Shown: positions 5,357 through 42,008 of the stretch, piece after piece
Layout: each line of letters opens with the position of its first letter
How positions within the stretch are numbered: the stretch's first letter is position 1
NCBI GenBank assembly: GCA_026874595.1
Contig: CM049306.1
Coordinates: 105,537,142-105,601,141, forward strand
Origin: Sipunculus nudus
Lineage: Eukaryota; Annelida; Sipuncula; Golfingiida; Sipunculidae
DNA: 64,000 nt
Direction of reading: 5' to 3'
Program-made: the position numbers and the translations under genes
Notes under the pieces: model-generated
Databases searched by the model: none
The model's input: the letters and a program-made list of their open reading frames with translations, nothing else
What the model was told of the DNA's origin: nothing

Positions 5357-5387
<31 letters not shown>

Positions 5388-5388: not shown

Positions 5389-6343
5389 TGCTTCTTAATA
5401 TGTACTCCATTTCACTGTGAATGGTGGACTAGGTAGAATTTCCTAAAACTTTGGGTTGGGTTAGTGAGAATCTGGCATTAAATCCAGACAAAGTTGTCCT
5501 TTTTCTGTTGTTTATTCTTCACAAAATATGTAAAAAGATTTAGTCATCCACCTTAAAACTTTACAAATTATTTTTTGGATTATGACCAAAACATAAAAAT
5601 ACTACCTAGAATTCCTTAGGAACCTTTAAATATACTTTGGATGAACTAACCGTAAGAGACGGGTTTTTATACCTTCACTATCAGCGAGCGGATAGTGATG
5701 TTGGTGATGTAATAATCGAACAATAGGATGACGCAATAACAAAATCATATCAAATGGAAGAATAACAGGGCCATTTTCATATTTTATGTATAAATGAAGC
5801 AAATATTTAGTCACTGGTTAAAACCAAGGAAAGTGGAGCCATACTGTATACGATACAGGTTGCCTGAAATCAGCAAGTGGTCCGCCATATGTACATTGCA
5901 CAAACTACCCAAGGATACCTTGTTGTCTCTATATGATTTTTTTTAATGAATTTATCAATGAAATTTTGTAGAACAATAAACTGGTGGACAAACAACAGCT
6001 GATTAATTTTCATGATTAGTCTGATGAATCTTGATGCGGATCCATGTGTTGGCGGAGGTTTGCGCTCTATAGGTGCTCTCTAATATTGTAATAAACGTCT
6101 TAACGCAGTATTTGAGTGTCTAGTCTAAGTTATTGTGATGTAATATATCTTACTAACCATTTTGAGGTGTTTAGTTGCTATACATCTCTCTGTATGAAAT
6201 ATTTATATATAATGGTCCTCAATTTTTGCTCTAAAATCAAATTTGACCTGAAAAAATAACAAAACCACTTTAGAAAAATCGGCACCATATTTTTTTGTAA
6301 AGTTTAAGGTCTAAGGATCACAAAAATGTAGGGTGTCCTCTTT

Positions 6344-6960: not shown

Positions 6961-7137
6961 CCCGGCCTGGAAGGAAATAATTAAAATATGCATTTGAGTC
7001 TTAGGACATCCAGCTAAATTTACACAAAAATTGATCATATCCTGGCATCAGTATGCCTACAAAAAGGAGTTTTAAAGATTTTAAAAGGTCGATCCTAATT
7101 CTACAGACTTTTGTCAATATTTTGAATAAATCTGTCA

Positions 7138-7138
<1 letters not shown>

Positions 7139-7217
<79 letters not shown>
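7139..7217. repeat. Compound (AT)n-(AG)n microsatellite
   Basis: About 50 bp of AT followed by 28 bp of AG, in the same order as the locus near 3.8 kb. Confidence 0.95.
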
Positions 7218-7219
<2 letters not shown>

Positions 7220-7449
7220 CCTTTCTGAGAATTCCATATATAGACTTGATGCTGCTTGTGCGCCTACAATGATTTAACATGCAATAGAAGAGCATTTTTT
7301 TTGTCTCTATAGACAGAAAGGTGCACTTATTCCTATAAGCATTTAAAAGATCTAAAGTTGATCGCAACATCAGGACTGAAACCGGCATGAGAAGTTAGAT
7401 CATCATAGGCCTAAATAATACAGTTACCTAGGCAAAAAATACAAATTTT

Positions 7450-7683
7450 AAGTGCCTGTGAGTCCGATGGGGTCTGATAAGGTCTGATGGGGACATGAAT
7501 TTGATAAATCAAATTTATAAATAAAGAGCAATAAGAGCAATAAAAAGTGAGAAACTGGAAATTAACCCTTTTTTTCATTAACCTGAACATTAAAATTGAC
7601 TTAAAATGTATTTCTCAATATTCAAAGGTCCGATTAGGTCCGATGGGGTCCTATTGGGTCCGATGGGGTGATAAGTCTGACCC
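7450..7683. repeat. Right copy of the inverted repeat pair
   Basis: Contains GTCCGATGGGGTC-type motifs and ends GATAAGTCTGACCC. It is the reverse complement of the block starting at 1574. A run of C interrupted by TTGT (7697-7732) follows immediately. Confidence 0.5.
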
Positions 7684-13612: not shown

Positions 13613-13909
13613 ATGAACCTTGCAAGGAGTGCTCTTGTAGGTCTGTCCATTGGGAGGTGCCTTGTTAGGAGAATAAGAATAGTTTCACACACACCGACAC
13701 TGTGTTCACAGGGATTTCAGCGCAATCAGACCACGCCATTCTCATATTCATTTCCATACAGCCATAGAGCAAGCCCCAGAGATACTGTGATGGAGGAGGA
13801 GGATGTTACTAGTACTAAAAGTGAGAAGAGTGTTCAGAAACGCAGCACTGATGGTACAGACTGTGGACCAGAGGGAAAAAGGCTGAAGACAGATGAATCA
13901 ACAGACAAG
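13613..13909 (+). CDS. PUS1: PUS1 exon 1 (mitochondrial presequence, nuclear start, basic patch)
   Basis: 99 codons, ending phase 0 at AAG|GTTAAA. The first 40 residues ([20 protein letters not shown] onward) are Arg-rich and poor in acidic residues, like a mitochondrial targeting peptide. A second ATG at 13790 begins [10 protein letters not shown] and would give a shorter nuclear form that retains the basic patch GKRLK. Human PUS1 has an equivalent two-start arrangement. The first ATG is chosen because it opens the frame and gives the presequence. Confidence 0.85.
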
Positions 13910-22900: not shown

Positions 22901-25900
22901 AGAAACATTTATGGTCCAATCACGATCAGCTGAGCGCCGTGACCCATGGGTCCTTTGTTTTTATTATTTATAAAACATTTTTGTTGTTTATATACGCTAG
23001 TGAAGAACAATTTTGTGTTCATCTTTCAAGTAGGCTTTATTCTATATCTTTTCATGATTGATGAATTAAAAAAATGCATTCTAACTCAGTACAGTTTGAG
23101 TTCAGGGGACATTGGACAATTTTGTGTGTATGTGCCCTTATTATACCCTTGTTTTCATGTGATGTATTGTGCACTTTTGCATGGTGTCAAAACAATATTA
23201 ATTACATAAATAGGCAATAGAGGGCAGCATAGACATTTAAGCCATTTTTAAAATGAATGTTTTTTTTTCACAGCTAATAAACTACATTTTGCACTTTTCA
23301 ATGGCTTTTGAGTTTTCTGGTTTATACGTACAAGTGAAAATAATATTTTCTTTTCAATGCATTATTTTCTATTTCAGAAAGTGCAGGAGGATTTCCGCAT
23401 GTCAGGTATTGTACATAAAATTTTTATAACATAAAAAATCATATTCATAATAATAATTATTTCAATTATTATGATTGTTCTAAATATGGAATGTTTATTG
23501 GTTAAGAAAATTTAAATTATTCAGTGTATAATATTTAAAAATGAAAGTTAAATTCCTTTGCAGATACTTAATTAAAATATGATACATTTCTTGAACTAAT
23601 TGAGCAAGGTATTCTGCCTGTATATTATAAATTCATCGAGATTAAGGTATCTTATAAAATGCTTATTTTGATTTTGAATGAACAGAGGAAATTCGTGCAG
23701 AGGTATCCAGGCTCTTGATGCTCTACAAGGGAACGCACAAATTCCATAATTTCACATCTCAAAAGTGAGCATACTAAAATTTCAATTATTTTAATTTACA
23801 GAAGTAAGATTTTGCAAAGTGTATTGTGGTAAACTTATTTGAAATTGAAAAAGGTTATATTATTTTGAGAATTGATTAACTTGTATAAATTTTTCCCTGA
23901 TAAAAAAAAATTGTCATCATTAAAAATAGGAAAACTTAATTAAACTGATGTTAGAATGGACTTAATTCAAGGACTGAAACTTACCTGAAAAACTTATGAA
24001 TTTGGCAGAAATATTGTAACAAAGAGTTTTCAGAAACAGCATGTGACAGGGATGACATTTTATTCTTTTAGTTTACTGGAATCAATGCTTCTTTTCAGAA
24101 AGCCCACTGATCCAAGTGCAGCCAGGTACATCATAAATATACAGGTATGATATATATTATATAGGTATTGTAGATATTTGTGGGGCTCAAAATAAAACTG
24201 TAGATAACTCAAATCAGACATTGACATACAATATTTTCTGTTTTGGCCCTGGTAGGTAAGAATTCTGTTTAACACAGTTCCTCTGTCTGTTTCCCAGTTG
24301 AATGAAGTTAATTTATTAGCTCAGCTGACTATAAGTCATCTGAGCTATAGTCGTGGTCCTTTGTCCGTTGGCTGTCCGTCCGTCCGTCTGTCCATCCGTC
24401 CGTTAAACTGGCACGTTTTGAAACCGTTAGACCTACGAATCTGAAATACAACATACAGTTAGATGTCCCCAAACATCTCCTACCATACCGAAAATTTGGT
24501 CATTAGGACTTCGTTTCTTCGAGATATTAAGAAAAAACTTCCATTTTCCATAAAAAAACCATTGTTACACTATAAGACTGCCTAATATCAAATCCACTGA
24601 TCTGATTTTGATCATAGTGAATATACATATTCTTCCATACAATTTCTATGTACATACCAAAAATTAGGTGAGCATTGCGTAATTTGTTGAAGTTATGGGC
24701 CGGAACATAATGCACCTCATAAAAAAATCAGGAAATATATTAACTCACTTAACATAAGAATGGCTGAAGCTAGAGACTTCTTTTCAGGGATATAACGCCA
24801 TTTAATCAAGATTCAATTGTATACCGAAAATTAGATCTGAATTTTTCAAATTTTATAAGTTATTCACATAAATATGAAACCAGTACCTAAAATTTTGCCC
24901 AAATTTGGGCATGGCACTTTTTTTTCCCTGTAAGTACTGTTGGTTTAATTTTCATATCATGCACATGTAAGGATTTCAGCTTCTAAATTCTGAAATTTGA
25001 AAGGAATTGACCAAAAACTAACTTTTATTACATTTTTTATGAGACCATGTCACACCTAGGCTGTACTGGAGCCCCTCTATATGTCCCCATATTGACCTTT
25101 CATGCTTGAAGTGAGGCATATACTGCAGCAAGCCAGCTCTTGGGTGGCCTCAGCTGGATATAGCTATTCAACCCCCCTCCTCTTGTAATTGTTTGGCCAA
25201 AAACATAACAATAAAAAATAATTTGAAAAAATTATTGGTTTACAATAACAACTTTAGGTAAAATAAATGGAAAAAGTATTTTATGGTTAATGAGTAACAG
25301 GTACCTTGCAATTACTGATGTTTTATGAATCTTTCATGGATTGCTGAAAATATATTTCAAATGACACCATGCAGTCACCATTGGGTATTTTTTTAATTTC
25401 AATCATAAAAATGAAAAATAAATAATTAAATAAAATTGTTGTTCACTTATAAGGGATTATGTGAAGCAAGTTAATGATAGACAAGGATGGATTTGATCAT
25501 ATTAAATATTCTAAATTTCCAGGTCTTTTCCAGGTGTTTAATTTGTTGGTTTTTTTTTATTACAACATTTAAAAAAAATGAAATATGTAAAAAATTAAAA
25601 AAAAATTAATCAGACAAGTGCTCATTAAAGATGTCAATATGTTTGAATAATAACATTCAGACTCATGGCTGTATCAGCTGTTACATGATACTGGGTAAAT
25701 AATAAAAATTTATATTTCTGATAACTTTATTTCAGTTGATAAAATTAAACTCCAGTTTGCTCCTTGTATAATATATTGGTTTGTTTTGATCCTTGGGTTA
25801 TTTTTAACACATGTATTAGATTCGAAGTAGAGATTATTTTCTATTTTTCTGATACAAATTAAAAAAAAAATAAAATTTTTAAAATTTGATAAAAAAAATC

Positions 25901-28900
25901 AGGTCTTAAAGACAAGTTCTCATCATAATGTGTATAATGTTAATAATTGTCATAAGTGTCTTGACAGTGATGTGAAAGTATTCAAAAGTGAATATAATAT
26001 TTTTTTTTTTAAATTAAAGCCATAAAAACAGGTAGTTACAATCATTATTTAAATTTGTGAAATTTGTATATTCTGGATTCTCAACAGTTTCGTTCGACTG
26101 AAACTGAATAAATATGAGACCTTGAGTGAATACTTATTATATATAATAATTGTATTCAAATATGATTAAAAAAAATTCAATAGTTCAATAATGTTAATTA
26201 ATACAAATACTAATACAGGTAAAAAGAAAGAATTTGAGTGCAAATACTTTCAAATGTTTTCATTAATGCATTCATGAATATATTTTATAATTTTATTTTA
26301 ATCATTTATTGTATCCCCAGACAAAGTCGGGGGATACTATGTTTTCATACCGGTCCCGCCGCCGCCTGCCGCCGCCGCCGCCGCCGCATATGAATCTTGT
26401 TGGCGCGATAACCCAAAAAATATTTCACGGAACTTTACCAAACTTGGTATATGTATAGATATGGGTAAGAGGACGACGCCTATTTAAAATGAGGTCATGA
26501 CCTTTACTAGGAGAGTGTCCTTGACCTTGAATAGGTCCAATTTTGGGGAAAATCACACAAATTCTTTAATATCTCAAGAAATCTTGCATGGATTTATCCC
26601 AAAATCAAGTTGATGGAAGATCATGGGTAGGGTTGTCATGTTCCAGAAACTGGTGGCGCCACCTATTATTCTTTACTTGTTTTCGTGCCGTTTAATACCC
26701 CCTAAATTGCATCCTTACAGCACTGTGAGCATTATAAGTCAAAAACTAATGGACAGATTTCTTTTATATTATGCATATACATAGGTATGGGTTATGGGAT
26801 GATGCTTATTTAAATTGGGGTCATGACCTTTCCTATGATAGTGGCCTTGACCTTGAATATTGCCATATATGGTGAAAATCACACACCTCTTATGATATCT
26901 CCAGTGTTGATAGCCATATGGATTTCAAACATGACTTATGTATGGCCCACCACTAAAGTAAGAACCCTATAGGTTCTAGGGTCATGAGGTCAAAGGTCAA
27001 GGTCACTGGACTGGCATTTTAAAAGATACTGTGGATGCATTTTAAGCCAAACTTTCATCCCAGGTCTTCCATCTTGAATATATAGCTCACTTGCCAATAA
27101 TGGATGATCCATATAAATTTTGGGGTCACAAGGTCAAAGGTCAAGGCCACAGGAGCTATCTGTCCAAAAATTAGTTTCTGGATGATAGTTCCTGCTTTTA
27201 TTGATGTAATGATTTCAAAATTGACTTATATATGTCCCATTGAAAAAGCAAGACCCAAATTGATTTTGGGTTCATGAGGTCAAAGGTCAAGGTCACAGGA
27301 AACCTCTTTAAAAAGATTGTGGATGCATTTTCAGCCAAACAATTCATCTCAGATCTTTCATCTTGCACATATAGTTCACCTGCCAAGAGTGGAAGACCCC
27401 TATCAATTTTGAGGTCACAAGGTCAAAGGTGAAGGTCACAGGAGCCATCTGTCCAAAAATTAGTTTCTGGATGATAATTCCTGCTTTTCTTGATGTATGG
27501 ATTTCAAACTTGACTTATATATGTCCCATTGGAAAAGCAAGACCCAAATTGATTTTGGGGTCATGAGGTCAAAGGTCAAGGTCACAGGACACATCTTTAA
27601 AAAGATGTGGATGCATTTTCAGCCAAACATTTCATCTCAGACCTTTCATCTTGCACATATAAGTCATCTGCCAATAGAGGAAGACCCCTATCAATTTTGA
27701 GGTCACAAGGTCAAAGGTGAAGGTCTCAGAAGCCATCTGTCCAAAAATTAGTTTCTGGATGATAATTCCTTCTTTTATTGATGTATGGATTTCAAACTAT
27801 ACATGTATTTGACCCATTGGAAATGCAAAACCGGAATTGAATTTCGGGTCATGAGGTCAAAGGTCAAGGTCACAGGACACATCTTTAAAAAGATGTAGAT
27901 GCATTTTCAGCCAAACATTTCATCTCAGATCTTTCATTTTGCACATATAGTTCACCTGCCAAGAGAGGAAGAACCCTATCAATTTTGAGGTCACAAGGTC
28001 AAAGGTGAAGGTCACAGGAGCCATCTGTCCAAAAATTAGTTTCTGGATGATAATTCCATCTTTTACTGATGTATGGATTTCAAACTTGGCTTTGTTATTG
28101 ACCCATTGGAAAAGCAAGACCCAAATTGATTTTGGGGTCATGAGGTCAAAGGTCAAGGTCACAGGAAACCTCTTTAAAAAGATTGTGGATGCATTTTCAG
28201 CCAAACAATTCATCTCAGATCTTTCATCTTGCACATATAGTTCACCTGCCAAGAGTGGAAGACCCCTATCAATTTTGAGGTCACAAGGTCAAAGGTGAAG
28301 GTCACAGGAGCCATCTGTCCAAAAATTAGTTTCTGGATGATAATTCCTGCTTTTATTGATGTATGGATTTCAAACTTGACTTATATATGTCCCATTGGAA
28401 AAGCAAGACCCAAATTGATTTTGGGGTCATGAGGTCAAAGGTCAAGGTCACATCTTTAAAAAGATGTGGATGCATTTTCAGCCAACATTTCATCTCAGGT
28501 CTTTCATCTTGCACATATAGTTCACCTGCCAAGAGAGGAAGAACCCTATCAGTTTTGAGGTCACAAGGTCAAAGGTGAAGGTCACAGGAGCCATCTGTCC
28601 AAAAATTAGTTTCTGGATGATAATTCCATCTTTTACTGATGTATGGATTTCAAACTTGGCTTTGTTATTGACCCATTAGAAAAGCAAGACCCAAATTGAT
28701 TTTGGGGTCATGAGGTCAAAGGTCACAGGAAACCTCTTTAAAAAGATTGTGGATGCATTTTCAGCCAAACAATTCATCTCAGATCTTTCCTCTTGCACAT
28801 ATAGTTCACCTGCCAAGAGTGGAAGACCCCTATCAATTTTGAGGTCACAAGGTCAAAGGTGAAGGTCACAGGAGCCATATGTCCAAAAATTAGTTTCTGG

Positions 28901-30070
28901 ATGATAATTCCTGCTTTTATTGATGTATGGATTTCAAACTTGACTTGTATATGTCCCATTGGAAAAGTAAGACCAAAATTGATTTTGGGGTCATGAGGTC
29001 AAAGGTCAAGGTCACAGGACACATCTTTAAAAAGATGTGGATGCATTTTCAGCCAAACATTTCATCTCATATCTTTCATCTTGCACATATAGTTCTCCTG
29101 CCAAGAGCGGAAGAACACTATCAATTTTGAGGTCACAAGGTCAAAGGTGAAGGTCACAGGAGCCATCTGTCCAAAAATAAGTTTCTGGATGATAATTCCT
29201 GCTTTATTGATGTATAGATTTCAAACTTGACTTGCATATGTCCCATTGGAAAAGCAAGACCTAAATTGATTTTGGGGTTATAAGATCAAAGGTCAAGGTC
29301 ACAGGACACATCTTTAAAAAGATCAAGGTCACAGGACCAACATCTTCAACAAGATTGTGGATCGTTAGATGGAATAAACAATAAATATGCCAAGTGTCAG
29401 TATATGCTGCTAAAAATGGGGGTCTGTTCTTGTAGGAGGGGGGCCTACTATGTCTGGGGATACTCTGGCACCTGCGGTGCCAAGAAATGTCTAGTTTCAA
29501 TTATATTAATCATGCATGATAATTAACATGACTTACAGTGGACATTTATTTCCTGTTACTAGTGTTAGTGCTGTGGATTTAATTTTCACAGCATGTACAC
29601 ATAAGCATTTCATCTGTTAAAATCTGAAATTTGAAACCAATTGATCAAAAACTGTAGATGTCATTCAAGTTTTTCAAGCACCATGCCTTGATTGTTTTCA
29701 TCTAGTCAGTGAAATGTGTGCTTGGGCAGTATTACATAACTGGTTCAACTTCTGACCTAGCCACTACCCCTGTGATTGTCTGGGTCAGGCTGGGTCAGGC
29801 AGTATTTAACAGAGAGCCTCTCTCTCTCTCTGGCAGTCTTATCTCTCTCTCTCTCTCTCATGCTCAATCTCTCTCTCTCCATGACAGTCTAGCTCACTCT
29901 CTCGCTCTCTTTCTTTCTCTCTCTCTTTCTCTCTCTCTCTTTCTCTCCCATTCTCTCTCACCCCTAAGCCTCCCATTCTCCCTGCACCCCATTCTGTTGA
30001 CAGGTACTATAAACCAGATTAATTAGCTATGAATTTTGAAGCAACTTAGAAATGTGAATCAACTGAAAAA

Positions 30071-30134
<64 letters not shown>

Positions 30135-33100
30135 ATACTGTAAATGTGTAGTTACATTTTTAAACCTGGAAAAAATGATGTATTGAAAAAAAGGAATAAA
30201 GGCAAATATTGTTAATTTTTCCTGGCTCAGTAGAATGGGAAAAAAATGATTTGCTTTGTTTCTCCACCTTTCTGCCTGCTTAAATATTTAATAATTATGA
30301 ATAAACATTTTTCTCAGTAAGCACTTGAATTCAATTTAATATCCTGTATGAATATGCAAGGGTGCTGTAACTCCCACCATCCCCTTCCCCCACCCCATAG
30401 AGTCCTTGCTCTTTGGCACTGTGAACAACAGTTCTATTGCTTTACCATAAAATTTAATAATTAAAGATAATTTATACAGAAAGACTGAGGCGTTTTAACT
30501 ATCATCATAACCCCCTCCCCCCCTCCTGTCAATCCTTCCACCTGTTAAGTGGGGACTTTATGGCTACTGTATACATATGATAAAAATAGAAAATAGGTTT
30601 ATTAAAATAATTGGATCTTATTAAACAAATCTGTAAACTGTTGAACTGTCAACAGCTTATCAAAAAGGTAACCAATGGAAACACATGGTCAGATCTCAGA
30701 ATATTATTTGCAACAATTTCTTCAATCATATCAACCAATCATGGCCAAGATTACCTTTTCCGATCAGACTTTATCTGCTTTTCATAATATTTTAGATTTT
30801 AACCTTCCAGGTGTTTAAGTACTGTTGAATGCTCCATCCCCTCTCTCTGTCTCTCTTTCTCTCTTTCTCTCTTTCTCTCTCTCTCCTTTTCTCTCTACAT
30901 CCACCTCATAGCTGCCCTCACTGTTCCCTTCTCTGGGCCCCATCCCAATGTCAGCCTCCGTAAACAAGAACAAGATGAATCAGATATATTCATACTTTAA
31001 TATTTTGTATAACTATTCGTCCATAGGTACCTATGTACATGCCAGAAATTATGTCAATATTGTGTAATATGTAGACATAGTTGGCATCAAAATAATGTAC
31101 ATTGTTAAGACTGAAGAGATATTGTGTCATACAGTAACAAATTCATAAATCCCCTCATCAGCATAGTAAATCATAACATCACATCTGTCAAATTGAAATC
31201 TTGCAGACTTCCATACACTATAGATCCTTCAACAAATAGTCTATTCTGTATTCATCATTCTACTACTGCTTATTACTGCTGTCATTGCATTCATATTTGC
31301 TCAGATATATCGCAATTTTCAACCCCTCCTAAATAAATAAAAAATAAACCGCTATATTTTACTCTATTAATCCATCAGTCAGGTTATTTCATTCATTATT
31401 TACTCACATATTACATTACATTCCTTTATAATAGTCCAACATGTCCATAATATTCATAAGCTTTATCAACTCGATATAGTATCACAGTGGAGAAACATTT
31501 ATGGTCCAATCACAATCAGCTGAGCGCCATGACCCATGGGTCCCTTGTTTATGTTTCTATATAGATAACTTTTTTTTCCTGGGCTGTTATTTCACTGTAG
31601 GTTAAGATGAATGATGTACACTTTTATTTTACCAGAATCTTTTTAACTGGGCTTTATCTGAAAGGAAATAGCTGAATTTTTATGCTCTTAAATATTTTGT
31701 GCAATGTGTCATTTAAACTGTGCTTCATTATTATATTCTGTTACAGTGTGGTGAGCCATTCATAGAAGATGGAATAGAGTTTTGTGCAATAAGTATCAAA
31801 GGCCAAAGTTTCATGATACACCAGATCAGGAAAATGATAGGTAAGTGAAAATAGCAGCAGTTCACCATACAAGTCCATATACATTAGCTGTAAGTCCATC
31901 CCTAATCTTTTTGCAGTTGTAGAGGTTCAGCTTCTAGGTCTTATACTGTTACTTCTCAGTTTCATATGGGAAATTTCATTGATATGTCAACATGTCAGTG
32001 ACATCTTTTGAGTGATTGAGTTGTTTTAAATTGCACTTTTGTTATTTACTGATTTTAAAGTCCCAAATACAGTCTTATTATTATTTTTTTAATGCCACCT
32101 ATTTGTGTATTGAAGCTTTTTTTGTCTCGCATGTTGGCCCTTGTGCTGGTTTATTGTATGCGCCAAAACAGAGTTTTGCGGATACTTTGTTTCATGATGG
32201 GTTCCCCCGCTGCCACCTCCGCCACTGTGTTTTTTTCCGGGATAACTCCTCTGGGACCCTTTGAGCAATCTTTCCGAAACCCAGCTAAATTATTTGCTCA
32301 CATATTAACTGGTGCGTAACAAAGACTGCAATCCTTTTTCATGCAGTTTGAATCTGGGTGTCTTAGTGATAAAAGCCCATATCTCAGGAGTGGTTCAATG
32401 TACTGGGCTGAAATTGTGCATGTCCGTAGATCTTGGATCTCTCCATCTTACACTTAAGACTGGTGGCGCCACCTACCATCATTTTTGTGTGGAGTCCATC
32501 TATGCATTAACCATCTGTTTGTCTTAGTGATCTGTTCAATGTATTGAGGTGAAATTGTGCATGTCCATAGAACTTGGATACCTCCAGCCCATACTCAAGA
32601 CTGGGGACACCATCTGCCATCGTTTTTGTGTGGTATCAATCCGTGCATTTGCTTTGGGTGAAAATTGCTTATATATCAAATTGGTTCAATGTATCGGTCT
32701 GAAATTTGGCATGTTTATCCATCTTGGAGAGTTTTTTCATAGACCAGACAGGTGGCACCACCTACCTTCCTGTTTTTGTAGAATACATTGATGCCCTTAA
32801 CCCTTTGAACCCACTAGACCGAAATATCGGGCTGACTCAAAGAATACAATGCCCCGTAATCCCGATATTTCGGGCTCTGAGCACATGGCTAATTGACATG
32901 CATCGCAACATGATTAGTAGCGAATCAGCGGGTACCTAACAGCAAACCTGTTAGCCAATGAGCGGTCGTCTATCAAACCACTTTGGCTACAGCCGATAAC
33001 ATCATGGCGGCGCCCAGTAAGCGCGTGAAAGCGTGGTAACTGTACCTGTGTTTACCTAGTAAACAATGAAGCGAGCGCGCAATGACACAGGGACAGGTAG

Positions 33101-36100
33101 AAAAACTGCTAAGCGGTTCACAGCAGAGCAGGTACTTGATTTTATTGATTCTGATGACGATGGAGGGGACGTTTATACCGGAGATTACCCCTCAGATGAA
33201 CTCACTACATCGGACGAGGAATCTGACAGAGATATTGACAGTGAACCTTCGGATTCGGATACTCAGGTGAGTGATTCTGGTCATGTGGGAGGGAATGCAC
33301 CTGTTTCACCTACAGGTCAGAGACCTAAACGCAACAGTAAGAATACGAACAAGGCATCGCCATTAGACACTGGGTGGTCAGAAAAGTTCATACCAGTTGA
33401 CACTACGTTTCGTGTTAGTGAGGTAGGCCCAAAACAAATGCCCAAGGACATATCTGATAAAAGTTCTGAATTGGATTTCCTGAATATCTATCTTGATGCA
33501 GACTTTTGGAATTTGTTGTGCACACAAACCAACCTGCGTGCTGAGCAGGCAAAGGTAGAAAACCCTGATGGATTTTACTGTAAAAAATTCACCCCTGTTG
33601 ATATTGCAGAAATGAAAGCATTTATTGGACTTCGCCTTCAAATGGAAAATGCAGTTGTAAAGCCAAGATATGAAAATTTCTGGCAAGGCAAAGGAAAGAA
33701 TTTTCTTGCGCACACACCAGGATTTCGTGAGGTCATGGAGCGTGACCGCTTCTTGGCATTATGGACATTCCTACATTTGGTAAATGAACAAGATGCTGAT
33801 GTAGATAAAACTGACAAGATCTACAAAATCCGTCCGATGCTAGACATTATTTTACCAAAGTTTCGTAAGTTCTACCAGCCACAACAGTATCTCAGCCTTG
33901 ATGAAGGAATGATACCCACGAAAAATCATTTGTCCATCAAGCAATATATCAAAGACAAGCCCATCAAATGGGGTATAAAATCTTTCTTGCTTTGTGAATC
34001 TGAAACCGGATATATTTTGCATGCTGAATTGTACACAGGCAGAAATGATGATGGGCACATCCCTGAACTTGGGGCTACTGGTAGTGTTGTTGTGCGACTC
34101 GTGACGGCAGGACAAGTTGTACACAAGAATCATATTCTTGTTATGGATAGATTCTATAACTCGGTGGCCCTCTTCCACTATTTACAACATACAAAGGGAA
34201 TATTTGCAGTGGGGACCGTGATGCCACACCGGAAGCATTATCCAAAAGCCCTGAAAAAGAAAAAGTTGCCTCACCGGGGGGACCACAAATATCAGAGCAG
34301 GGAGAACATTTCAGGTCTTGTGTGGATGGACAGAAAGGCAATCAATTTTCTGTCAAGCTTCCATGATCCCACTCTCACTGGTACTGTGAACAGGAGAAAT
34401 AAAGATGGGACTATAGTTGAAGTGAAAATTCCCAAACTTGTTCAAGACTACAACAAGTATATGGGCGGATGTGATAAGAATGACCAGATTGCCCATCTGA
34501 ACAAAACCAGACGTCACTACCGCTGGCCTCGTAGGCTCTTCATCAAATTTTTCATGTGGGCCTGCTATAATGCTTATGTATTGATGGGATACTACAGGCC
34601 ACATAATGAGCCAGGAAGGAGATTCAGGAGTTTCCAGGTCTTCGTTGATGAGTTGAGTCTCCAGCTAGTCTCCGACTTCCGGACCACAGTGAAACGACGC
34701 GAATCACGTGAATCACAATTTGAACAGAGGATGCAGAACGTGGGGCTTCACTACCCGGAGAGGTCGCCAGAGGCAACAGGCAACAATGTATGTTGTGTTT
34801 GCACCTACAAATATAACAAGTACAGACGTGATCATCCAGATGTTCCAGCCAAGGATTTACCTTTCAAAAAGGTAAAAACCACATTCTGGTGTGGTTATTG
34901 TCGACAATACCTGTGCATCAGAGATGGCTCCACCTGTTGGCGGGACTGGCATGAAAAAGTAGAATACTGGCGCTAATTCAGGCAAGTTGGGACTCTGATA
35001 CATAATTCATGTGACTAATGAATAAAAGTTGTGAAATAATCATGTTTGGAGTCATTTTTGCTATTATCCCTCGTTCATGTAATTTTCACCCAGGGCCCCG
35101 GGGTCGGGGGTACGGTCCAGTCAGGTCCTCGGGGTTCAAAGGGTTAACTCATGAGTGGTTTACAGTATTAGCCTGAAATTTTGCATGACCATATATCTTG
35201 GACACCTCCATCTCATACTCAAGACTGGGGATGCCATCTGCAGTTGTTTTCATGTGGCGTCCATTGGTCTGTTTGCTTTGGGTGAAAATCACTCATATCT
35301 CAGGAGTGGATGGATGTATCAGCCTGAAATTTTGCAGGTTTATCCGTTTTAGATAGCTTTATTATAGGTCAGACAGGTGGCACCACCTGCAATCATGTAT
35401 TAGAAGAATATGTTCATCCATTAATCTCAGGACTGGTTTTATGTTTTATTATGATGTCCCTTTCTTACCAGTCAGTGTCCAACAAGTTTGAGTCATGATT
35501 GATCTAGCTCCACAATATGCCACATATAATTCCTAAAGCTTTTTACATCAGCATGTTCAGTTACATCTGATTAAATGTTAGTTAATTGATAAGCAATATA
35601 TATGTAAATATATATGTGTGTATGTATACATATATATATTAGTCCAGAACTGAATGCTGACAAGCCTCACAACCCCTCATCCAGGCCCAGGCCCATCAGC
35701 ATCCAGCACAAAATGGACATAGTCCATTTGTCCAGCCATCAGATCAGGCCTGAAAGCTTGTCCTGGCTAAATGCTCAAACCTAAGCCTTTCACTGTGATG
35801 TATTGAACAATATTATATACGGTATATTATTAATTCTCCCCTGCATGGTAGAACTTTTTCCTTTTGATCAATTGAGCTGCCATATGTATAAACATTAATA
35901 TATATAACCTATTCATGTTAAGTCATGACCAACATTAGGGGTTTTGTCTTTGAGGCTTTAGTTATGGCCATCATGAGGGGTTTTGTCTTTGCAGGTTTAG
36001 GTATGGCCATCATGACAGGTTTTGTCTTTGTGGGTTTGGCGATGGCCATCATGAGGAGTTTTGTCTTTGTGGGTTAAGTTATGGCCATCATGAGGAGTTT

Positions 36101-39100
36101 TGTCTTAAGGGTTTAGTTATGGCCATCATAAAGGGTTTTGTCTTTGCAGGTTTGTTATGACCATCATGAGGGTTTTTGTCATTGTAAGTTTAGTTATGGC
36201 CATCATGAGGGGTTTTGTCTTTGTAGGTTTAGTTATGGCCATCACGAGGAGTTTTGTCTTTGCAAGTTAAGTTCTGACCATCATGAGGGGTTTTGTCTTT
36301 GCAGGTTTAGTCATGGCCATCATGAGGGGTTTTGTCTTTGTGGGTTTAGTTATGGCCATCATGAGGGGTTTTGTATTTGCAGGTTAAGATATGGCTATCA
36401 TAAAGGGTTTTGTCCTTGCAGGTTTTATCATGGCCATCATGAGGGGTTTTGTCTTTGTGGGTTTAGTTATGGCCATCATAAGGGGTTTTATCATTGCAGG
36501 TTTAATTATGGCCATCATGAGGGGTTTTGTATTTGCAGGTTTAGTCATGGCCAACATTAAGGGTTTTGTCTTTGCAGGTTTTGTTATGGCCATCATGAGG
36601 GGTTTTGTCTTTGTAGGTTTAGTTATGGCCATCATGAGGGGTTTTGTCTTTGTGGGTTTAGTTATGGCCATCATAAGGGGTTTTATCATTGCAGGTTTAG
36701 TTTTGGCCATCATGAGGGGTTTTGTCTTTGCAGGTTTAGTTATGGCCATCATGAGGGGTTTTGCCTTTGTGGGTTTAGTTATGGCCATCATGAGGGGTTT
36801 TGTATTTGCAGGTTAATTAATGGCTATCTTGAAGGGTTTTGTCCTTGCAGGTTTTATCATGGCCATCATGAGGGGTTTTGTCTTTGTTGGTTTAGTTATG
36901 GCCATCATGAGGGGTTTTGTCTTTGCAGGTTAAGTTATGGCCATCATGAGGGGTTTTGTCTTTGCAGATTTAGTTATGGCCAACATGAGGTCTTTTTTGT
37001 CTTTGCAGGTTAAGCATTAGCCATCATGATGGGCTTTGTGTTTGTTTGTTTACTTATGGCCATCTTTAGGTGTTTTGTCTCTGTGGGTTTAGTGTTGGCC
37101 ATCATGAGGGGTTTTGTCCTTTCAGGTTTAGTTATGGCAAACATGAGAGGTTTTGTCTTTGCAGGTTTAGTTATGGCCATCATGAGGGGTTCTGTCTTTG
37201 CCGGTTTAGTTATGGCCATCATAAGGGGTTTTATCTTTGCAGGTTTAGTTATGGCCATCATGAAGGATTTTGTATTTGTGGGTTTAGTTATGTCCATCAT
37301 TAAAGGTTTTATCTTTGCAGATTTAGTTATAGCCATCATGAGGGATTTTGTACTTGTGGGTTTAATTATGTCCATCATGAGGGGTTTTGTCTTTGCAGGT
37401 TTAGTTATGGCCATCATGAGGGGTTTTGCCACCACAAGTCACATGGATGTAGCCTGGGGCAACAAAAGGGTGGACATTCCTAAAGCTCCAGGACTTGGTC
37501 TGATGCTAGAAAGGGTAAGTAGCTATTAGAGCCATTATACCATTATATTTCATTAGATAACCTTATCATGACTAGTCAAATATCACTAAAATTTACTGCA
37601 TTCAAGATTCTTAAAAAAGTATTTTATTTTTCAGACCCAAATTATTTTCTGAACATACAGTATTTTCTGGGTTTATGTTTCAGTTACACTATGATGCCTA
37701 CAACAAAAAGTTTGGAAATGATGGCATGCATGAAAAACTAGAATGGTCAGATTATGAAGTAAGTGCATCACTTGTTTTTATTTGAATTAATATTTCAACA
37801 GCAATAAAACAGAATAGCAAAGTAACATAAAAAGTTTCATCATATTATGTTTATCTTAGCTGAGTGTGAGTTAAGGATAACTGTTTATCCACTGTCTGTC
37901 TGGCCAGACATCCATGAGAAGTAAACAGATCAGTGCTGTTATACCCACAGACCTGAAATGTTTTGTATTATTACTAGTAAATTGGGGCTAAATCTTAATC
38001 CTTAAAGTAGGTCACTGTTGTTTCTTCAAACAACTAAAGTTTGCTGCATATCAATATGTAATTTGTTTTCTCTTGATAAATACATCTTGATATTCAATTC
38101 TTTCTGTTTTAGGAGCAGATTCAGCAGTTTAAAAAAGAGTTCATCTACTCAACTATCATTCAGACAGAAAAGAAAGAAAAGTCATATCCTTTACTACTAC
38201 AAACATATTGAAATATGTTCAAAATGCAAAACTAGGCTGGTTGTGGCGCCACCAATGTTGACCCACTTTCTGTGACCTAAAAGGGTGCCATAAACATTTC
38301 AGCTCTTATATCATGTTTAAGTTTTTATTTTACTGAAAGGAATTAAATTAAGTTGATTTATTTTCAAAATGGAGTCTCTTTTTGTATGGATGGCACAAAC
38401 TGCATTTCTAGTGATGCCATTTCATCGACCATAAGCTATTTGTGTCTGCCGAAACAAAGTTTTGCAGATACTATGTTTTTGCCTGGGTTTGGCCGCTGCA
38501 GCCACGTTTGTTTTCCTTAATAAAACTCTGAGACCACTGGACAGATTTTTCTGAAACTTGACACCATTACTGGGTCACATGTGAACTGGTGCCAAAATAT
38601 TATGCGTTGACCTCTGACCTTTCCTCTCTGCAGTGCATCCATCTGTGTGTCTGTTTCGACACATTTACCCACATATCTTCGGGCTCGTTTGTCCCATTGG
38701 GCTTGAATGTAGCTCTTGGATAGCTTTATAACATACATAAAAAATGGTGGCACAACCTGCAACCATTTTTGCACAGCGTCCATCTGTTCATCTGCCCTGG
38801 GTTTAAATCTCTCATATCTCTTCAGTGGTTGGACTTATCCACCTGAAATTTTGCATGTGTATACATGCTGGATAGCTATCTTGATTTTATTACAGGTTGC
38901 ACCACCTGCATTCATTTCCAAGCTAATATCTCAAGACTGGTTTGATATATCCTCCTAAAATTTTGCAAGTGTATAGATCTCAAATTGCTCTTTATAATAA
39001 GCAAAACTGGTGGCGCAAACTTCAACAATTTTTGCACAGCGTCCATCTGTTTGTGTGCTGTGAGATGAAATCGCTCATTATTGGCAGTGGTTTGACATAT

Positions 39101-42008
39101 CTGCCTAAAATTGTGCATGTATATACATCTTGGATAGCTTTCTAGATTTTGTGGCAGGTGGCACCACTTTCATACACATTTCAGCTGCAGACATCCATGC
39201 TAATATATAAGGACTGGTTTGACGTATCACCCTGAAAGTTTGCATGAGTATACTTCTTACATAGTCATACAGCTTATACAACTTTGGTGGCCCAACTTAC
39301 ATCCTTCATCTGTTCATCTGACTAGGGTAAAAATCACTCATATCTCAGCAGTGGTTTGACTTATCCACTTGAAATTTTGCATATGTATACATCCTTACTA
39401 GCTTCCCTTTCAAATATCAGGTGGTGCCACCTACAATCATGTTTACATGGCAGACACCCATGCTAATATGCATCATATCTCACTCTTATTTCCCCTTGCC
39501 ATGCAATCCATGCCTAACTTCACCCGTCCCACTTTGATTTAGGCAGATACACATAGTCGCTTGTCTACTACCCATATTCTAGATATAATTATTCAATAAA
39601 AACCTTAATTTTCAGATTGAGCATCAAGTTTTTCAAATTGTAAATTTAAAATTATTGGACAAATCAAGAACAGATGTGAAGTAAGTTTGCCTAATTTAAA
39701 ATGATTGTGAAGTCTTTCAATGCTTGTGCCTAGATTATCCATAGAAAGGAAAACAGTGGACCTTAACTTCAAGAACAATGATGTCATGGCTGTCCACTCT
39801 ACATCTGCACAAATATGATACAGTTGAAGACTGGGATACTTCCCTTCCTCGGGCAGCCTCTCCGCTGGCTCAGGCACATCTCAACCTGCAGGCACACAGG
39901 GAAGCTAAGGTAAGAACAGCTCTGGCTGGCATGTGCTCACAGTCAGCCACACAGGGAAGCTAAGGTAAGGGCAGCTCTGACTGGCATGTGCTCACAGTCA
40001 GGCACACAGGGAAGCTAAGGTAAGGGCAGCTCTGACTGGCATGTGCTCACAGTCAGCCATACAGGGAAGCTAAGGTAAGGGCAGCTCTGACTGGCATGTG
40101 CTCACAGTCAGGCACACAGGGAAGCTAAGGTAAGGGCAGCTCTGACTGGCATGTCCTCACAGTCAGCCACACAGGGAAGCTAAGGTAAGGGCAGCTCTGA
40201 CTGGCATGTGCTCACAGTCAGCCACACAGGGAAGCTAAGGTAAGGGCAGCTCTGACTGGCATGCCCTCACAGTCAGCCACACAGGGAAGCTAAGGTAAGG
40301 GCAGCTCTGACTGGCATGTGCTCACAGTCAGCCACACAGGGCCGCTAGGGAAGCTAAGGTAAAAACAGCTCTGACTGGCATGTCCTCATGATCACAGTCA
40401 GGCACACAGGGAAGCTAAGGTAAGGACAGCTCTGACTGGCATGCCCTCACAGTCAGCCACACAGGGAAGCTAAGGTAAGGACAGCTCTGACTGGCATGCT
40501 CTCACAGTCAGCCACACAGGGCCCTAGGGAAGCTAAGGTAAAAACAGCTCTGACTGGCATGTCCTCATGATCACAGTCAGGCACACAGGGAAGCTAAGGT
40601 AAGGACAGCTCTGACTGGCATGTCCTCACAGTCAGCCACACAGGGAAGCTAAGGTAAGGGCAGCTCTGACTGGCATGTGCTCACAGTCAGCCACACAGGG
40701 AAGCTAAGGTAAGGACAGCTCTGACTGGCATGCCCTCACAGTCAGCCACACAGGGAAGCTAAGGTAAGGGCAGCTCTGACTGGCATGTGCTCACAGTCAG
40801 CCACACAGGGAAGCTAAGGTAAGGACAGCTCTGACTGGCATGTCCTCACAGTCAGCCACACAGGGAAGCTAAGGAAAGGGCAGCTCTGACTGGCATGTGC
40901 TCATGATCACAGTCAGGCACACAGGGAAGCTAAGGTAAGGGCAGCTCTGGCATGTGCTCACAGTCAGCCACACAGGGAAGCTAAGGTAAGGACAGCTCTG
41001 ACTGGCATATCCTCATAGTCAGCCACACAGGGAAGGGCAGCTCTGACTGGCATGTGCTTACAGTCAGCCACACAGGGAAGCTAAGGTAAGGGCAGCTCTG
41101 ACTGGCATGCCCTCACAGTCAGCCACACAGGGAAGCTAAGGTAAGGGCAGCTCTGACTGGCATGTGCTCACAGTCAGCCACACAGGGAAGCTAAGGTAAG
41201 GACAGCTCTGACTGGCATGCCCTCACAGTCAGCCACACAGGGAAGCTAAGGTAAGGGCAGCTCCGACTGGCATGTGCTCACAGTCAGCCACACAGGGAAG
41301 CTAAGGTAAGGACAGCTCTGACTGGCATGTCCTCACAGTCAGCCACACAGGGAAGCTAAGGTAAGGGCAGCTCTGACTGGCATGTGCTCACAGTCAGCCA
41401 CACAGGGAAGCTAAGGTAAGGGCAGCTCTGACTGGCATGCCCTCACAGCTGGTTGTGTAAGATGAGATTATAAATTTTCCCATATTATCTGTCTGAATAT
41501 TAATTTTGATTGTTTTCTACACTGCCCAAATTTGGTTTAGACCTACTAAAATAGAAAAAAAAATTCCATATAAAAAGTGCTATTTTGCAAGGAATACGAA
41601 TTAAAATTGCAAATGAAATACTGGATGTAACACTCTGACCTGGGGCAATGTAATAGGGCACTTGTGATGACAGTATGTTCTGTAAGCATGGTCAGTCTTC
41701 TCTAGGAGGGGCCAGTGGCAGGTCAGTGGTTAACACATGGGATTAGTGTTGTTATTAGCTCCATACAATAAGGAATCAACATAAAAGTCTCAATGAAATG
41801 GTCACAGTCAAATATGGTTAAACTGGAACAGCTATGGAGCACTGAATTTGTAAATAAAATCTTTTGATGTTTTTTGTTTTATTTCCTGCAGAAACTAGAA
41901 GAAAACTCCAAACCTGAAACAGCAGAATCATCAGACCAACAGGAGGAGATGCAACGTAGTGATAAACAGAACCACCAGGGGGACAAGTCAGTCAGCAGTA
42001 CCAGCTGA
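13613..42008 (+). CDS. PUS1: PUS1, tRNA pseudouridine synthase (16 exons, 515 aa)
   Basis: Spliced coding sequence: 13613-13909, 14280-14389, 14939-15032, 15235-15285, 15357-15429, 16121-16183, 16639-16739, 23378-23405, 23686-23764, 24099-24144, 31747-31840, 37399-37514, 37684-37758, 38113-38180, 39774-39909, 41892-42008. It totals 1548 nt, in frame throughout, with GT-AG introns. PUS1 (TruA family) isomerises uridine to pseudouridine in tRNAs and other RNAs, in nucleus and mitochondrion. Family landmarks in order: [14 protein letters not shown]; the catalytic motif [12 protein letters not shown] (Asp near residue 194); [63 protein letters not shown]; and the C-terminal [12 protein letters not shown]. 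No fold motif is missing, so the enzyme is probably functional. The N-terminus has an Arg-rich presequence (residues 1-40) and a second in-frame Met at 13790, as expected for dual mitochondrial and nuclear products. Confidence 0.95.
14280..14389 (+). CDS. PUS1: PUS1 exon 2 (first conserved strand)
   Basis: Acceptor TTCTAACAG, donor AAAG|GTGAGA, ends phase 2. It encodes the family's opening block [20 protein letters not shown] followed by MQR. Confidence 0.92.
14939..15032 (+). CDS. PUS1: PUS1 exon 3 ([16 protein letters not shown] helix)
   Basis: Acceptor TGTCTTCCAG, donor GTCAG|GTGAGG. It completes the split Arg codon and continues [17 protein letters not shown], the helix that precedes the catalytic region. 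Confidence 0.92.
15235..15285 (+). CDS. PUS1: PUS1 exon 4 (17-codon linker)
   Basis: Acceptor TTCTTTCAG, donor CAGAG|GTAAGC, phase 0 at both ends. [17 protein letters not shown] occupies the variable spacer before the catalytic motif. It could be skipped without changing frame. Confidence 0.8.
15357..15429 (+). CDS. PUS1: PUS1 exon 5 (catalytic aspartate)
   Basis: Acceptor ATACTTAG, donor GGATAA|GTATAT, ends phase 1. It encodes [20 protein letters not shown]; the Asp of RTD is the nucleophile conserved in all TruA-type pseudouridine synthases. Confidence 0.95.
16121..16183 (+). CDS. PUS1: PUS1 exon 6 ([14 protein letters not shown])
   Basis: Acceptor TACTTGCCAG, donor TTTTAG|GTGAGT, ends phase 1. 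It matches the family segment 'INSHLPSHIRILG'. Confidence 0.92.
16639..16739 (+). CDS. PUS1: PUS1 exon 7 ([21 protein letters not shown])
   Basis: Acceptor TATTTCTACAG, donor ATCAG|GTATGG, ends phase 0. It carries the conserved Arg-Thr-Tyr region that packs against the active site in TruA proteins. Confidence 0.94.
16960..19501 (+). mobile_element. Helitron-like non-autonomous element in PUS1 intron 7
   Basis: The 3' end has a weak hairpin (AGTTG CTTGT CGACT) nine bases before CTAG (19498-19501), followed by T. Upstream, a unit of about 280 bp recurs about five times: CAGCAGTGG appears near 18172, 18447, 18722, 19001 and 19270, in a frame of CACTCATATCTC and GAAATTTTGCAGG. GGTGGCGCCACC-like palindromes punctuate the units. 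The 5' boundary is uncertain; a GTCCGTCC-rich repeat near 17000 may be its start or a separate insertion. Open frames at 18455 and 18732 are translations of the tandem unit, not genes. Confidence 0.6.
19699..22957 (+). mobile_element. ~3.3-kb hairpin-ended element, copy 1 (PUS1 intron 7)
   Basis: The left end is a hairpin, TAGCTCAG ... CTGAGCTA, around ACTATAAGTCAT. The right end is the palindrome GACCCATGGGTC preceded by CAGCTGAGC. A GTCCGTCC-rich block follows the left hairpin, and a unit of about 680 bp is present twice (TAGATGTCCCCA at about 19862 and 20545). The copy at 42309-45568 is nearly identical over its full length, so both moved recently. No transposase is encoded. The small ORF 22541-22750 recurs at 45152 but is disrupted at 31124, so it is unlikely to be a gene. 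Superfamily unassigned; the hairpin ends are compatible with a Helentron-type element. Confidence 0.7.
23378..23405 (+). CDS. PUS1: PUS1 exon 8 (28-nt micro-exon)
   Basis: Acceptor TTTCTATTTCAG, donor GTCAG|GTATTG, ends phase 1. It encodes KVQEDFRMS, aligning with the family's 'DETYRLSAE' segment. Both neighbours need it to stay in frame. Confidence 0.88.
23686..23764 (+). CDS. PUS1: PUS1 exon 9 ([14 protein letters not shown])
   Basis: Acceptor GAATGAACAG, donor CAAAA|GTGAGC, ends phase 2. It encodes [20 protein letters not shown] and HNFTSQ, the conserved His/Asn-Phe RNA-contact segment. Confidence 0.94.
24099..24144 (+). CDS. PUS1: PUS1 exon 10 ([12 protein letters not shown])
   Basis: Acceptor CTTCTTTTCAG, donor ACAG|GTATGA, ends phase 0. 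It matches family 'QDPSACRYI'. Confidence 0.93.
26374..26388. repeat. (GCC)n tract
   Basis: A short CCG/GCC run near the Helitron 5' end, in otherwise AT-rich DNA. Confidence 0.8.
27000..29330 (+). repeat. ~288-bp tandem array with AGGTCA clusters
   Basis: GATTTCAAA landmarks fall at 27211, 27500, 27788, 28076, 28366, 28646, 28930 and 29217, spacings of 280-290 bp, so about eight units. Most units contain AGGTCAAAGGTCAAGGTCA and a second block AGGTCACAAGGTCAAAGG. The units are highly similar, indicating recent expansion inside the Helitron. Repeated ORFs such as those at 27497, 28363 and 28927 are translations of the unit, not proteins. Confidence 0.9.
29816..29950. repeat. CT-rich microsatellite
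   Basis: Interrupted CTCTCT runs over about 135 bp. The 105-codon ORF across it is a simple-repeat translation. Confidence 0.9.
30074..30131. repeat. (AT)n microsatellite
   Basis: About 58 bp of pure AT. Confidence 0.95.
30841..30897. repeat. CT-rich microsatellite
   Basis: CTCTCTGTCTCTCTTTCTCT-type run inside copy 2 of the hairpin-ended element. Confidence 0.9.
31747..31840 (+). CDS. PUS1: PUS1 exon 11 ([14 protein letters not shown])
   Basis: Acceptor TCTGTTACAG, donor GATAG|GTAAGT, ends phase 1 inside a Gly codon. It encodes [20 protein letters not shown] and [11 protein letters not shown], one of the most conserved PUS1 blocks. The next codons must come from exon 12, 5.5 kb away beyond a piggyBac element and array A. 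Confidence 0.95.
33066..34976 (+). CDS. piggyBac transposase (636 aa)
   Basis: Catalyses cut-and-paste transposition at TTAA sites in the nucleus. The order is: basic start (MKRARN, GRKTAKR); acidic Ser/Asp-rich region (residues 28-70); a transposase core (DDE_Tnp_1_7 type, about 130-510) with the three expected aspartates in [10 protein letters not shown] (D279), [10 protein letters not shown] (D361) and [10 protein letters not shown] (D470); and a Cys-rich C-terminal domain with CCVC (about 576-579), CGYC (609-612) and later Cys/His residues, as in the zinc-binding domain of the family. The length is in the usual range for the family. A single ATG-to-stop frame with no break lies inside matched terminal repeats. 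An alternative is a domesticated PGBD gene, but the intact ends and TTAA sites favour a mobile copy. Confidence 0.95.
   Translation: MKRARNDTGTGRKTAKRFTAEQVLDFIDSDDDGGDVYTGDYPSDELTTSDEESDRDIDSEPSDSDTQVSDSGHVGGNAPVSPTGQRPKRNSKNTNKASPLDTGWSEKFIPVDTTFRVSEVGPKQMPKDISDKSSELDFLNIYLDADFWNLLCTQTNLRAEQAKVENPDGFYCKKFTPVDIAEMKAFIGLRLQMENAVVKPRYENFWQGKGKNFLAHTPGFREVMERDRFLALWTFLHLVNEQDADVDKTDKIYKIRPMLDIILPKFRKFYQPQQYLSLDEGMIPTKNHLSIKQYIKDKPIKWGIKSFLLCESETGYILHAELYTGRNDDGHIPELGATGSVVVRLVTAGQVVHKNHILVMDRFYNSVALFHYLQHTKGIFAVGTVMPHRKHYPKALKKKKLPHRGDHKYQSRENISGLVWMDRKAINFLSSFHDPTLTGTVNRRNKDGTIVEVKIPKLVQDYNKYMGGCDKNDQIAHLNKTRRHYRWPRRLFIKFFMWACYNAYVLMGYYRPHNEPGRRFRSFQVFVDELSLQLVSDFRTTVKRRESRESQFEQRMQNVGLHYPERSPEATGNNVCCVCTYKYNKYRRDHPDVPAKDLPFKKVKTTFWCGYCRQYLCIRDGSTCWRDWHEKVEYWR
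35021..35026 (+). terminator. Polyadenylation signal of the piggyBac transposase
   Basis: AATAAA lies 45 bp after the stop codon and inside the element, followed by a T-rich stretch. It could also cause premature polyadenylation of PUS1 pre-mRNA, because both are transcribed in the same direction. Confidence 0.6.
35431..35930. other. Intron 11 spacer
   Basis: AT-rich spacer with a short interrupted TATA/TATG run near 35597-35640. No gene or clear repeat was seen. Confidence 0.4.
35932..37440 (+). repeat. Array A: 39-bp minisatellite derived from the exon 12 splice acceptor
   Basis: About 38 head-to-tail units of 39 bp. The consensus is GTTTAGTTATGGCCATCATG, then AGGGGTTTTGTCTTTGCAG, that is, the exon 12 start plus a pyrimidine-rich tract and AG. 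The last unit runs straight into PUS1 exon 12. A few units are 38 or 41 bp. A higher-order period of 11 units is visible: the rare ATGGCTATC variant followed by TTTTGTCCTTGCAGG occurs at 36391 and 36820, exactly 429 bp apart. Because 39 bp is 13 codons, long frames stay open on both strands (for example 36391-36816 and 37026-37529). They encode [13 protein letters not shown] repeats and are not separate genes. Confidence 0.95.
37399..37514 (+). CDS. PUS1: PUS1 exon 12 ([11 protein letters not shown]), start inside array A
   Basis: Acceptor TTTGTCTTTGCAG, donor AAAGG|GTAAGT, ends phase 0. It encodes [25 protein letters not shown] and [14 protein letters not shown], matching family 'GLVVAIVKGY ... 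[10 protein letters not shown]'. The first 25 or so bases are the terminal unit of array A. In-frame alternative acceptors exist at exon starts 37321, 37243, 37165 and 37126 (2, 4, 6 and 7 units upstream). These would add 26, 52, 78 or 91 residues without a stop. The downstream start is preferred because it gives the family's normal length. Confidence 0.93.
37684..37758 (+). CDS. PUS1: PUS1 exon 13 ([12 protein letters not shown])
   Basis: Acceptor TTATGTTTCAG, donor ATGAA|GTAAGT, phase 0 both ends, 25 codons. [20 protein letters not shown] matches family 'YNQRFGNDGLHEPLDW'. Confidence 0.95.
38113..38180 (+). CDS. PUS1: PUS1 exon 14 ([15 protein letters not shown])
   Basis: Acceptor TTTCTGTTTTAG, donor GAAAA|GTCATA (weak after position +2), ends phase 2. 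It matches family 'FKEEHIYPTIIGTERDE'. A read-through frame continues to 38275 if the weak donor is missed. Confidence 0.88.
38445..39582 (+). mobile_element. Helitron-like element in PUS1 intron 14 (~1.1 kb)
   Basis: The 5' end TCTGCCGAAACAAAGTTTTG, then CAGATACTATG, has the same architecture as the complete Helitron (TC start, short hairpin, GATACTATG). The 3' end has hairpin AGTCG CTTGT CTACT, then CTAG at 39579-39582. The flanking bases (G on the left, A on the right) deviate from the A/T rule, so the copy is old or the ends have drifted. It contains three to four of the ~280-bp units found at 18-19.4 kb. Confidence 0.6.
39774..39909 (+). CDS. PUS1: PUS1 exon 15 ([13 protein letters not shown]), end inside array B
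   Basis: Acceptor TTAACTTCAAG, donor CTAAG|GTAAGA, ends phase 0. It completes the split Lys codon, then [15 protein letters not shown], matching family 'SMAQWLSTLPIHNF'. The rest ([27 protein letters not shown]) is a variable tail. Its last 17 or so bases and donor are the first unit of array B. Confidence 0.85.
39893..41452 (+). repeat. Array B: 55-bp minisatellite derived from the exon 15 splice donor
   Basis: About 28 units. The consensus core is CACACAGGGAAGCTAAG|GTAAGG followed by CAGCTCTGACTGGCATG, then a variable TGCTC/CCCTC/TCCTC and ACAGTCAGC. The first unit is the exon 15/intron 15 boundary. The donor GGTAAG is intact in nearly all units; it is lost near 40874 (GGAAAG) and in the truncated unit near 41035. 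Two units carry an extra GCC(G)CTAGGG and several carry a CATGATCACAG insertion, giving a higher-order pattern (similar pairs near 40340-40420 and 40510-40590). Each unit contains CTCACAG upstream of the exon-like piece, so a 22-nt pseudo-exon is bounded by consensus-like sites. Confidence 0.95.
41453..41891. other. End of PUS1 intron 15
   Basis: Unique AT-rich sequence leading to a good polypyrimidine tract and acceptor (TTTTATTTCCTGCAG). No gene seen. Confidence 0.5.
41892..42008 (+). CDS. PUS1: PUS1 exon 16 (C-terminal tail and stop)
   Basis: Acceptor TTTCCTGCAG, phase 0, 38 codons and TGA. The tail [20 protein letters not shown] ... SVSSTS is acidic and polar with no conserved fold element, as in other PUS1 proteins, where this region varies. 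Losing it would probably not remove catalytic residues. Confidence 0.88.
   Translation, partial: KLEENSKPETAESSDQQEEMQRSDKQNHQGDKSVSSTS

Follow-up and report, generated by a model that had tools for sequence, protein, structure and literature searches.

Minisatellite-like tandem duplications of intron-exon boundaries have been described in amphioxus under the name of mirages, in Adh3, the globins BflGb6 and BflGb9, troponin C and the splice-site repeats of PGBD5, and in the accessible passages they are reported to splice normally (PMC3087553, PMC3902484). In human CBS, a 31-bp variable number tandem repeat (VNTR), c.1444_1467+7(16_21), is given as polymorphic in copy number, and in the 844ins68 allele, where the intron 7/exon 8 junction is duplicated, there is a strong preference for one of the two sites (PMC2630376). 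Tandem repeats at exon-intron boundaries were also reported in human segmental duplications, where they contain splice signals and can shift the limits of exons (PMC2812944), and the accessible passages on earthworm metallothionein describe intronic minisatellites and a duplicated exon with no boundary array (PMC12783039). Here we analyzed a window of 64,000 nucleotides from Sipunculus nudus (assembly GCA_026874595.1, contig CM049306.1, positions 105,537,142 to 105,601,141 of the forward strand), which holds the gene PUS1 with one minisatellite across an acceptor (array 1) and another across a donor (array 2). Both arrays are most probably junction-spanning minisatellites of the mirage kind, largely neutral, whose copies are spliced out with the exon-proximal site chosen, and such arrays recur in this genome. 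The kind is already known from the amphioxus mirages and the CBS 31-bp VNTR; what seems new is the occurrence of two arrays within a single gene, their high copy numbers and the rate found in a survey of the same genome.

The PUS1 gene is located at 13613..42008 (it and all its features given below are on the plus strand) and has 15 coding exons for 498 amino acids, from start codon to stop codon, every junction being GT-AG. Exon placement was manual, guided by reading frames and by the dinucleotides at the junctions; edges were slid by no more than 3 bases and the longest open reading frame was taken. For exon 13 an acceptor 3 bases later (38116) would also serve, with a shorter protein as the result. 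The 498-residue protein was matched to the solved PUS1 structure 9h51_c (E 2.4e-121, residues 88-430) and also to 4iqm, both of which we take to be human, and PF01416 (PseudoU_synth_1) was found in it with E 1.3e-13 and 51.8 bits against a cut-off of 23.3. By this predicted protein the gene is a complete PUS1 (tRNA pseudouridine synthase 1). Coding exon 10 (31747..31840) ends in ...HQIRKMI-G and provides the donor of the intron holding array 1, and the last coding exon (41892..42008) encodes 38 residues and the stop. A search of the assembly with 362 amino acids of PUS1 gave 11 matches, all at the window locus, and within the sensitivity of this search the gene would be single copy. The N-terminus (window 13613-13792) resembles a mitochondrial presequence and is followed by a later in-frame methionine (MEEEDV), as might be expected of a protein meant for two locations.

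Array 1 (35917..37398) is a 39-bp minisatellite of 38 units at the 3′ end of PUS1 intron 10 and runs 30 nt into coding exon 11 (37399..37514; acceptor AG at 37397-37398, donor GT at 37515), the exon edge being the only one which fits both the reading frame and the PUS1 alignment. Tandem Repeats Finder (TRF) reported 38.8 copies at window 35917-37428 with 82% matches and a score of 2024, and cutting backwards from the exon start at 37399 gave the 38 units, 33 of them exactly 39 bp long. The initial annotation of this DNA, made from the letters alone, had proposed a 38-copy 39-bp minisatellite before this exon at 35932..37514, and the array is indeed there; its start lies 15 bp earlier, position 37514 is the end of the exon, and the exon, numbered 12 in that annotation, is coding exon 11 of 15 in the present gene model. 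Each unit is composed of GTTTAGTTATGGCCATCATGAGGGGTTTTG, the 30 nt in common with the exon 11 start, and TCTTTGCAG, the intron end, so the exon start and the acceptor are carried together as had been stated, with an exon share of 30 nt instead of about 25. The start of the exon 11 peptide aligns with GLVVAIVKGY of the solved PUS1 structures; because the exon peptide is conserved there, exon 11 is the source and array 1 the product, in agreement with the proposal that the array was made from PUS1's own exon. The alignment thereby shows the units to carry PUS1's own conserved exon edge.

The unit ends read AG in 23 of 38 cases including the functional one (22 of 37 upstream), and the 15 others read GG (10), AA (2), TG (1), TT (1) and CG (1). 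The 20-nt context of the joint is identical in six of the 38 acceptors, that is the functional one and five upstream, and a heptamer resembling a branch point (score of at least 4.5 in our own scheme, which counts matches to TACTAAC with T for C as half) was found 30-32 nt before the unit end in 24 of 38 units. The branch point was therefore tried as a discriminator of the functional acceptor and was rejected, the last unit being unremarkable; the shared heptamer and context indicate that local signals do not single out this unit, and as predicted from the array the branch-point, pyrimidine and AG signals all fail to do so. With regard to the homogenized interior and diverged edges that a mirage would have, mean identity was 0.844 over all pairs of units and slightly higher at a lag of 11 units, 0.878. 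In the intron of array 1, about 940 bp upstream of it, there is a 637-residue open frame (window 33063-34973) with a DDE_Tnp_1_7 transposase domain (E 6.3e-78), which is presumably piggyBac-like.

Array 2 (39889..41448), identified by TRF and motif search, is a 55-bp minisatellite of the exon 14 end and the intron 14 start. The last 21 nt of coding exon 14 (39774..39909) form its exon part, and the first donor GT is at 39910. The exon-end motif GGAAGCTAAG occurs in 27 copies with GTAA next to it in 26, a count biased to intact copies because a 100-bp gap between motifs near 41030 hides at least one unit without a donor. Array 2 is the mirror image of array 1, with the functional copy first, at the donor. 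If donors 2, 3 or 4 were used, 17 residues and a stop would replace the last 38 residues of the protein. In searches of the 1.43-Gb assembly each array matched only itself (for array 1 by a search which passes over very common words), and an origin of the two arrays by import from elsewhere in the genome was rejected on this ground. Two more arrays lie in PUS1 introns without exon contact, at 18090-19378 (277 bp x 4.7) and 26917-29323 (288 bp x 8.4).

Like the amphioxus mirages in the accessible parts of their reports, the PUS1 arrays are placed at 5′ or 3′ boundaries, many of their units keep AG or GT, and the gene is intact (PMC3087553, PMC3902484). Array 1 spans the exon 11 acceptor and array 2 the exon 14 donor; with the exon-proximal sites the frame of 498 amino acids is preserved, and the authentic exon is intact at the array edge, as in a mirage. 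They differ from what those parts describe in animal and gene, in unit number, which is 38 and at least 27 where the two BflGb6 haplotypes have 3 and 6, and in that PUS1 holds both boundary kinds within a single gene. For the amphioxus mirages normal splicing and length instability have been shown, whereas the PUS1 arrays are known from the sequence of one assembly. The CBS VNTR, the name of which puts the unit partly in the exon and partly in the intron, is likewise a minisatellite (PMC2630376), but it is described there as one array at a donor and parallels array 2, not array 1; 844ins68, as given in the same source, is a single 68-bp duplication, unlike either array. Among the papers listed from the open text of PubMed Central no case in PUS1 was found, as the initial annotation had supposed, and no genome-wide survey of junction arrays was found there.

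A survey of the same assembly was compiled from exons located by PF00118, PF00063 and PF00225 (at least 63, 76 and 126 matches respectively, bacterial contigs included). It covered 22 regions picked for exon density and not at random, 137,212 bp in all with 99 matched stretches (81 + 18), to which 17 CCT loci with 1.5-kb flanks were added; 7 of these repeat counted exons and 10 are new, giving 109 stretches. The stretches are matches of hidden Markov models and not annotated exons, so that some cross stop codons and a few are alternative muscle myosin exons; arrays were detected by self-comparison and reading by eye, and the names kinesin, myosin and CCT-eta are our own reading of the Pfam matches and sequences. 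Acceptor arrays were found at 4 of the 109 stretches, in two kinesins, a myosin and CCT-eta. The kinesin array of region L065 (2265-2973) has a 31-bp unit in 23 copies including the exon, and that of L054 (2094-2401) a 61-bp unit in at least 5 copies and runs off the fetched region; the myosin array of L050 (3488-3964) has an 82-bp unit (TRF 5.8 copies), and the CCT-eta array of L045 (3348-3510) an irregular unit of 26-31 bp in 6 copies including the exon (TRF 60 bp x 2.8). No donor array was found in the 109 stretches, and the comparison of the added CCT loci with their flanks gave no repeat.

Some candidates were set aside. The array of L061 (46 bp x about 43, 1156-3163) reaches to within about 30 nt of the donor side of a matched kinesin exon but leaves out the junction, and was rejected as a mirage; low-complexity matches in L061 and a single weak repeat in L063 were not counted either. 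The repeated exons of L048 were rejected since they resemble alternative exons. In that region one muscle-myosin exon is present in four similar copies in a row (4830-7743), pairs of them being 72-81% identical, and they are probably mutually exclusive exons. Compared with known myosins, a muscle-myosin exon of this assembly gave similar scores for squid, scallop and vertebrate-type proteins.

With the two of PUS1 there are thus six junction arrays in five genes of this animal. Tandem repeats are prone to mis-assembly, and an aberrantly assembled mirage is mentioned in the accessible text on the amphioxus draft (PMC3087553), so the arrays could be artefacts of assembly; the units are nevertheless not uniform, with a mean identity of 0.84 between pairs, their order along the array varies, there are six arrays in five genes, and arrays 1 and 2 sit on a contig of 110.9 Mb, which leaves an artefact extremely improbable.

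Under the mirage reading, the origin of each array would be a tandem duplication of a short segment across a PUS1 exon-intron junction, after which the array may have grown into the intron by unequal exchange or slippage. The intact exon would remain at the array edge and the other copies would be intronic. The spliceosome would take the exon-proximal site, namely the last acceptor of array 1 and the first donor of array 2, presumably through exon definition in which this site and the opposite end of its exon are recognised as a pair; the other copies would be removed because this site is taken, and would drift without coding constraint. Occasional use of an upstream acceptor could insert 13-residue repeats before ATTSH, probably as a hydrophobic insertion. 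The following points weigh against this reading. The use of the exon-proximal sites in PUS1 is one that we infer by analogy with the reported normal splicing of amphioxus mirages and with the preferred site in CBS 844ins68. The nine units of array 1 nearest to exon 11 are all open in frame. Change among the 39 unit positions peaks at 37 and 38, where the C and A of CAG are altered in 13 and 12 of 33 units while the exon-like positions average 2.5, and such a peak would also arise from selection against competing acceptors. Finally, a PF01416 family search of the assembly listed 23 matches, of which 20 fell on small contigs and 3 on C15, and the window locus was absent among them; this points to limited sensitivity of that search, as the locus was found by the protein search.

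The open frame of these nine units, together with four upstream starts which carry AG, are in frame and stay open to the exon end, may suggest an isoform device, in which acceptors spaced by multiples of 13 codons are used on purpose to insert repeats and tune PUS1. The four starts lie within 37126..37359, at 37321, 37243, 37165 and 37126, and would add 26, 52, 78 and 91 residues, exactly as the initial annotation had given them. The changes in 33 units, however, show no bias of codon position (22, 24 and 29 at positions 1, 2 and 3 of the 30 exon-like positions; 31, 39 and 47 over the whole 39-bp unit), and in-frame stops are present in 5 of 33 units against 1.05 expected when the same changes are shuffled to random positions, an excess and not a lack; coding constraint on array 1 was rejected accordingly. 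The unit directly upstream of exon 11 is also without AG. The periods of the other five junction arrays are 55, 82, 61 and 31 bp, none a multiple of three, and an irregular 26-31 bp. In-frame upstream acceptors do exist in array 1, as had been argued from 39 bp being 13 codons, but a period of 13 codons is no rule. An isoform device is on these grounds highly improbable.

The initial annotation had also asked whether the units lacking AG reflect drift or selection, and the peak of change at positions 37 and 38, with AG missing from 15 of 37 upstream unit ends, is what would be seen if selection had removed competing acceptors from array 1 and the AG-less units were adaptive. Nine of these losses are, however, one linked CA-to-TG variant common to nine units, so that AG was lost in few events, and five upstream joints retain the exact functional 20-nt context. 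In the four other acceptor arrays AG is kept in 36 of 37 listed upstream copies (L065 22/22, L054 5/6, L050 4/4, L045 5/5). In this tally more diverged copies of the myosin array escaped the motif cut-off, and an empty row at the edge of L054 was left out. GT is likewise kept in 26 of the 27 counted donor copies of array 2, within the bias of that count. The conservation of AG in the 23-copy kinesin array itself does not reach significance: with 15 of its 31 positions unchanged, both positions of AG would fall among these with a probability of 0.23. The missing AGs were thus rightly noticed, and selection as their cause is unsupported and quite improbable, drift in the manner of a mirage being the preferred account.

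The joints between units could also act as paired acceptor and donor, as recursive or proto-splice sites, and so serve as substrate for new introns or small exons. The units at 36383, 36929 and 37009 read CAG/GTTAAG, and PUS1 exon 1 uses the donor GTTAAA; against such AG/GT pairing, the array 1 consensus is GTTTAG, which we take to be a weak donor. Novel introns were inferred for the repeats of segmental duplications and for potato RdRp, where an intron was reportedly gained by tandem duplication, whereas in the PUS1 gene model no gained intron is seen. Intron gain from mirages was proposed for the amphioxus globins, as far as the available text goes (PMC3087553). For PUS1 we regard this role of the joints as barely conceivable.

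If splice junctions were the preferred birthplace of minisatellites in this genome, duplicated splice sites would be arrayed at a few per cent of exons, in some cases in more than 20 intact copies, and exon extensions and new introns could draw on a large reserve of cryptic acceptors, donors and AG/GT pairs, with PUS1 holding one array for each kind of junction. Eight survey arrays with at least 4 copies and a period of 15-200 bp were placed at random, the CCT-eta array and a 337-bp array of L049 being left out as they lay beyond these limits. Three of the eight have an end in an exon, where random placement gives 2.35 on average (P 0.42), and only 2 of the 8 did so before the L054 exon edge was moved by hand to the acceptor read there. 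Under a stricter rule, set after the arrays were known, by which the end lies at most 45 nt from an exon edge and no whole exon is swallowed, 3 were seen against 0.79 (P 0.035). For PUS1 alone, 2 of 4 arrays are at junctions (P 0.0066), PUS1 having been picked because of its array. A preference for junctions is tentative on these values and we consider it rather unlikely.

The effect on PUS1 itself is probably small. A gene that tolerates 20 to 40 near-identical acceptors or donors offers a natural experiment on site choice by the spliceosome, in which the local signals are alike and the copies differ only in position and exon context. If the rate of 4 in 109, taken from chosen exon-dense regions, holds genome-wide, the animal would be a good system in which to measure the birth of splice sites and introns from minisatellites.

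Small contigs of the same assembly (C61 to C99, L002-L023; 0.1-3.3 Mb) hold bacterial TruA, on 10 contigs and with two near-equal scores, together with GroEL. They probably come from a divergent bacterium, either a symbiont or a contaminant, of which the assembly holds several versions. The nearest named TruA segment among the best 80 of 115 relatives has 47% identity and comes from an Omnitrophota metagenome-assembled genome.

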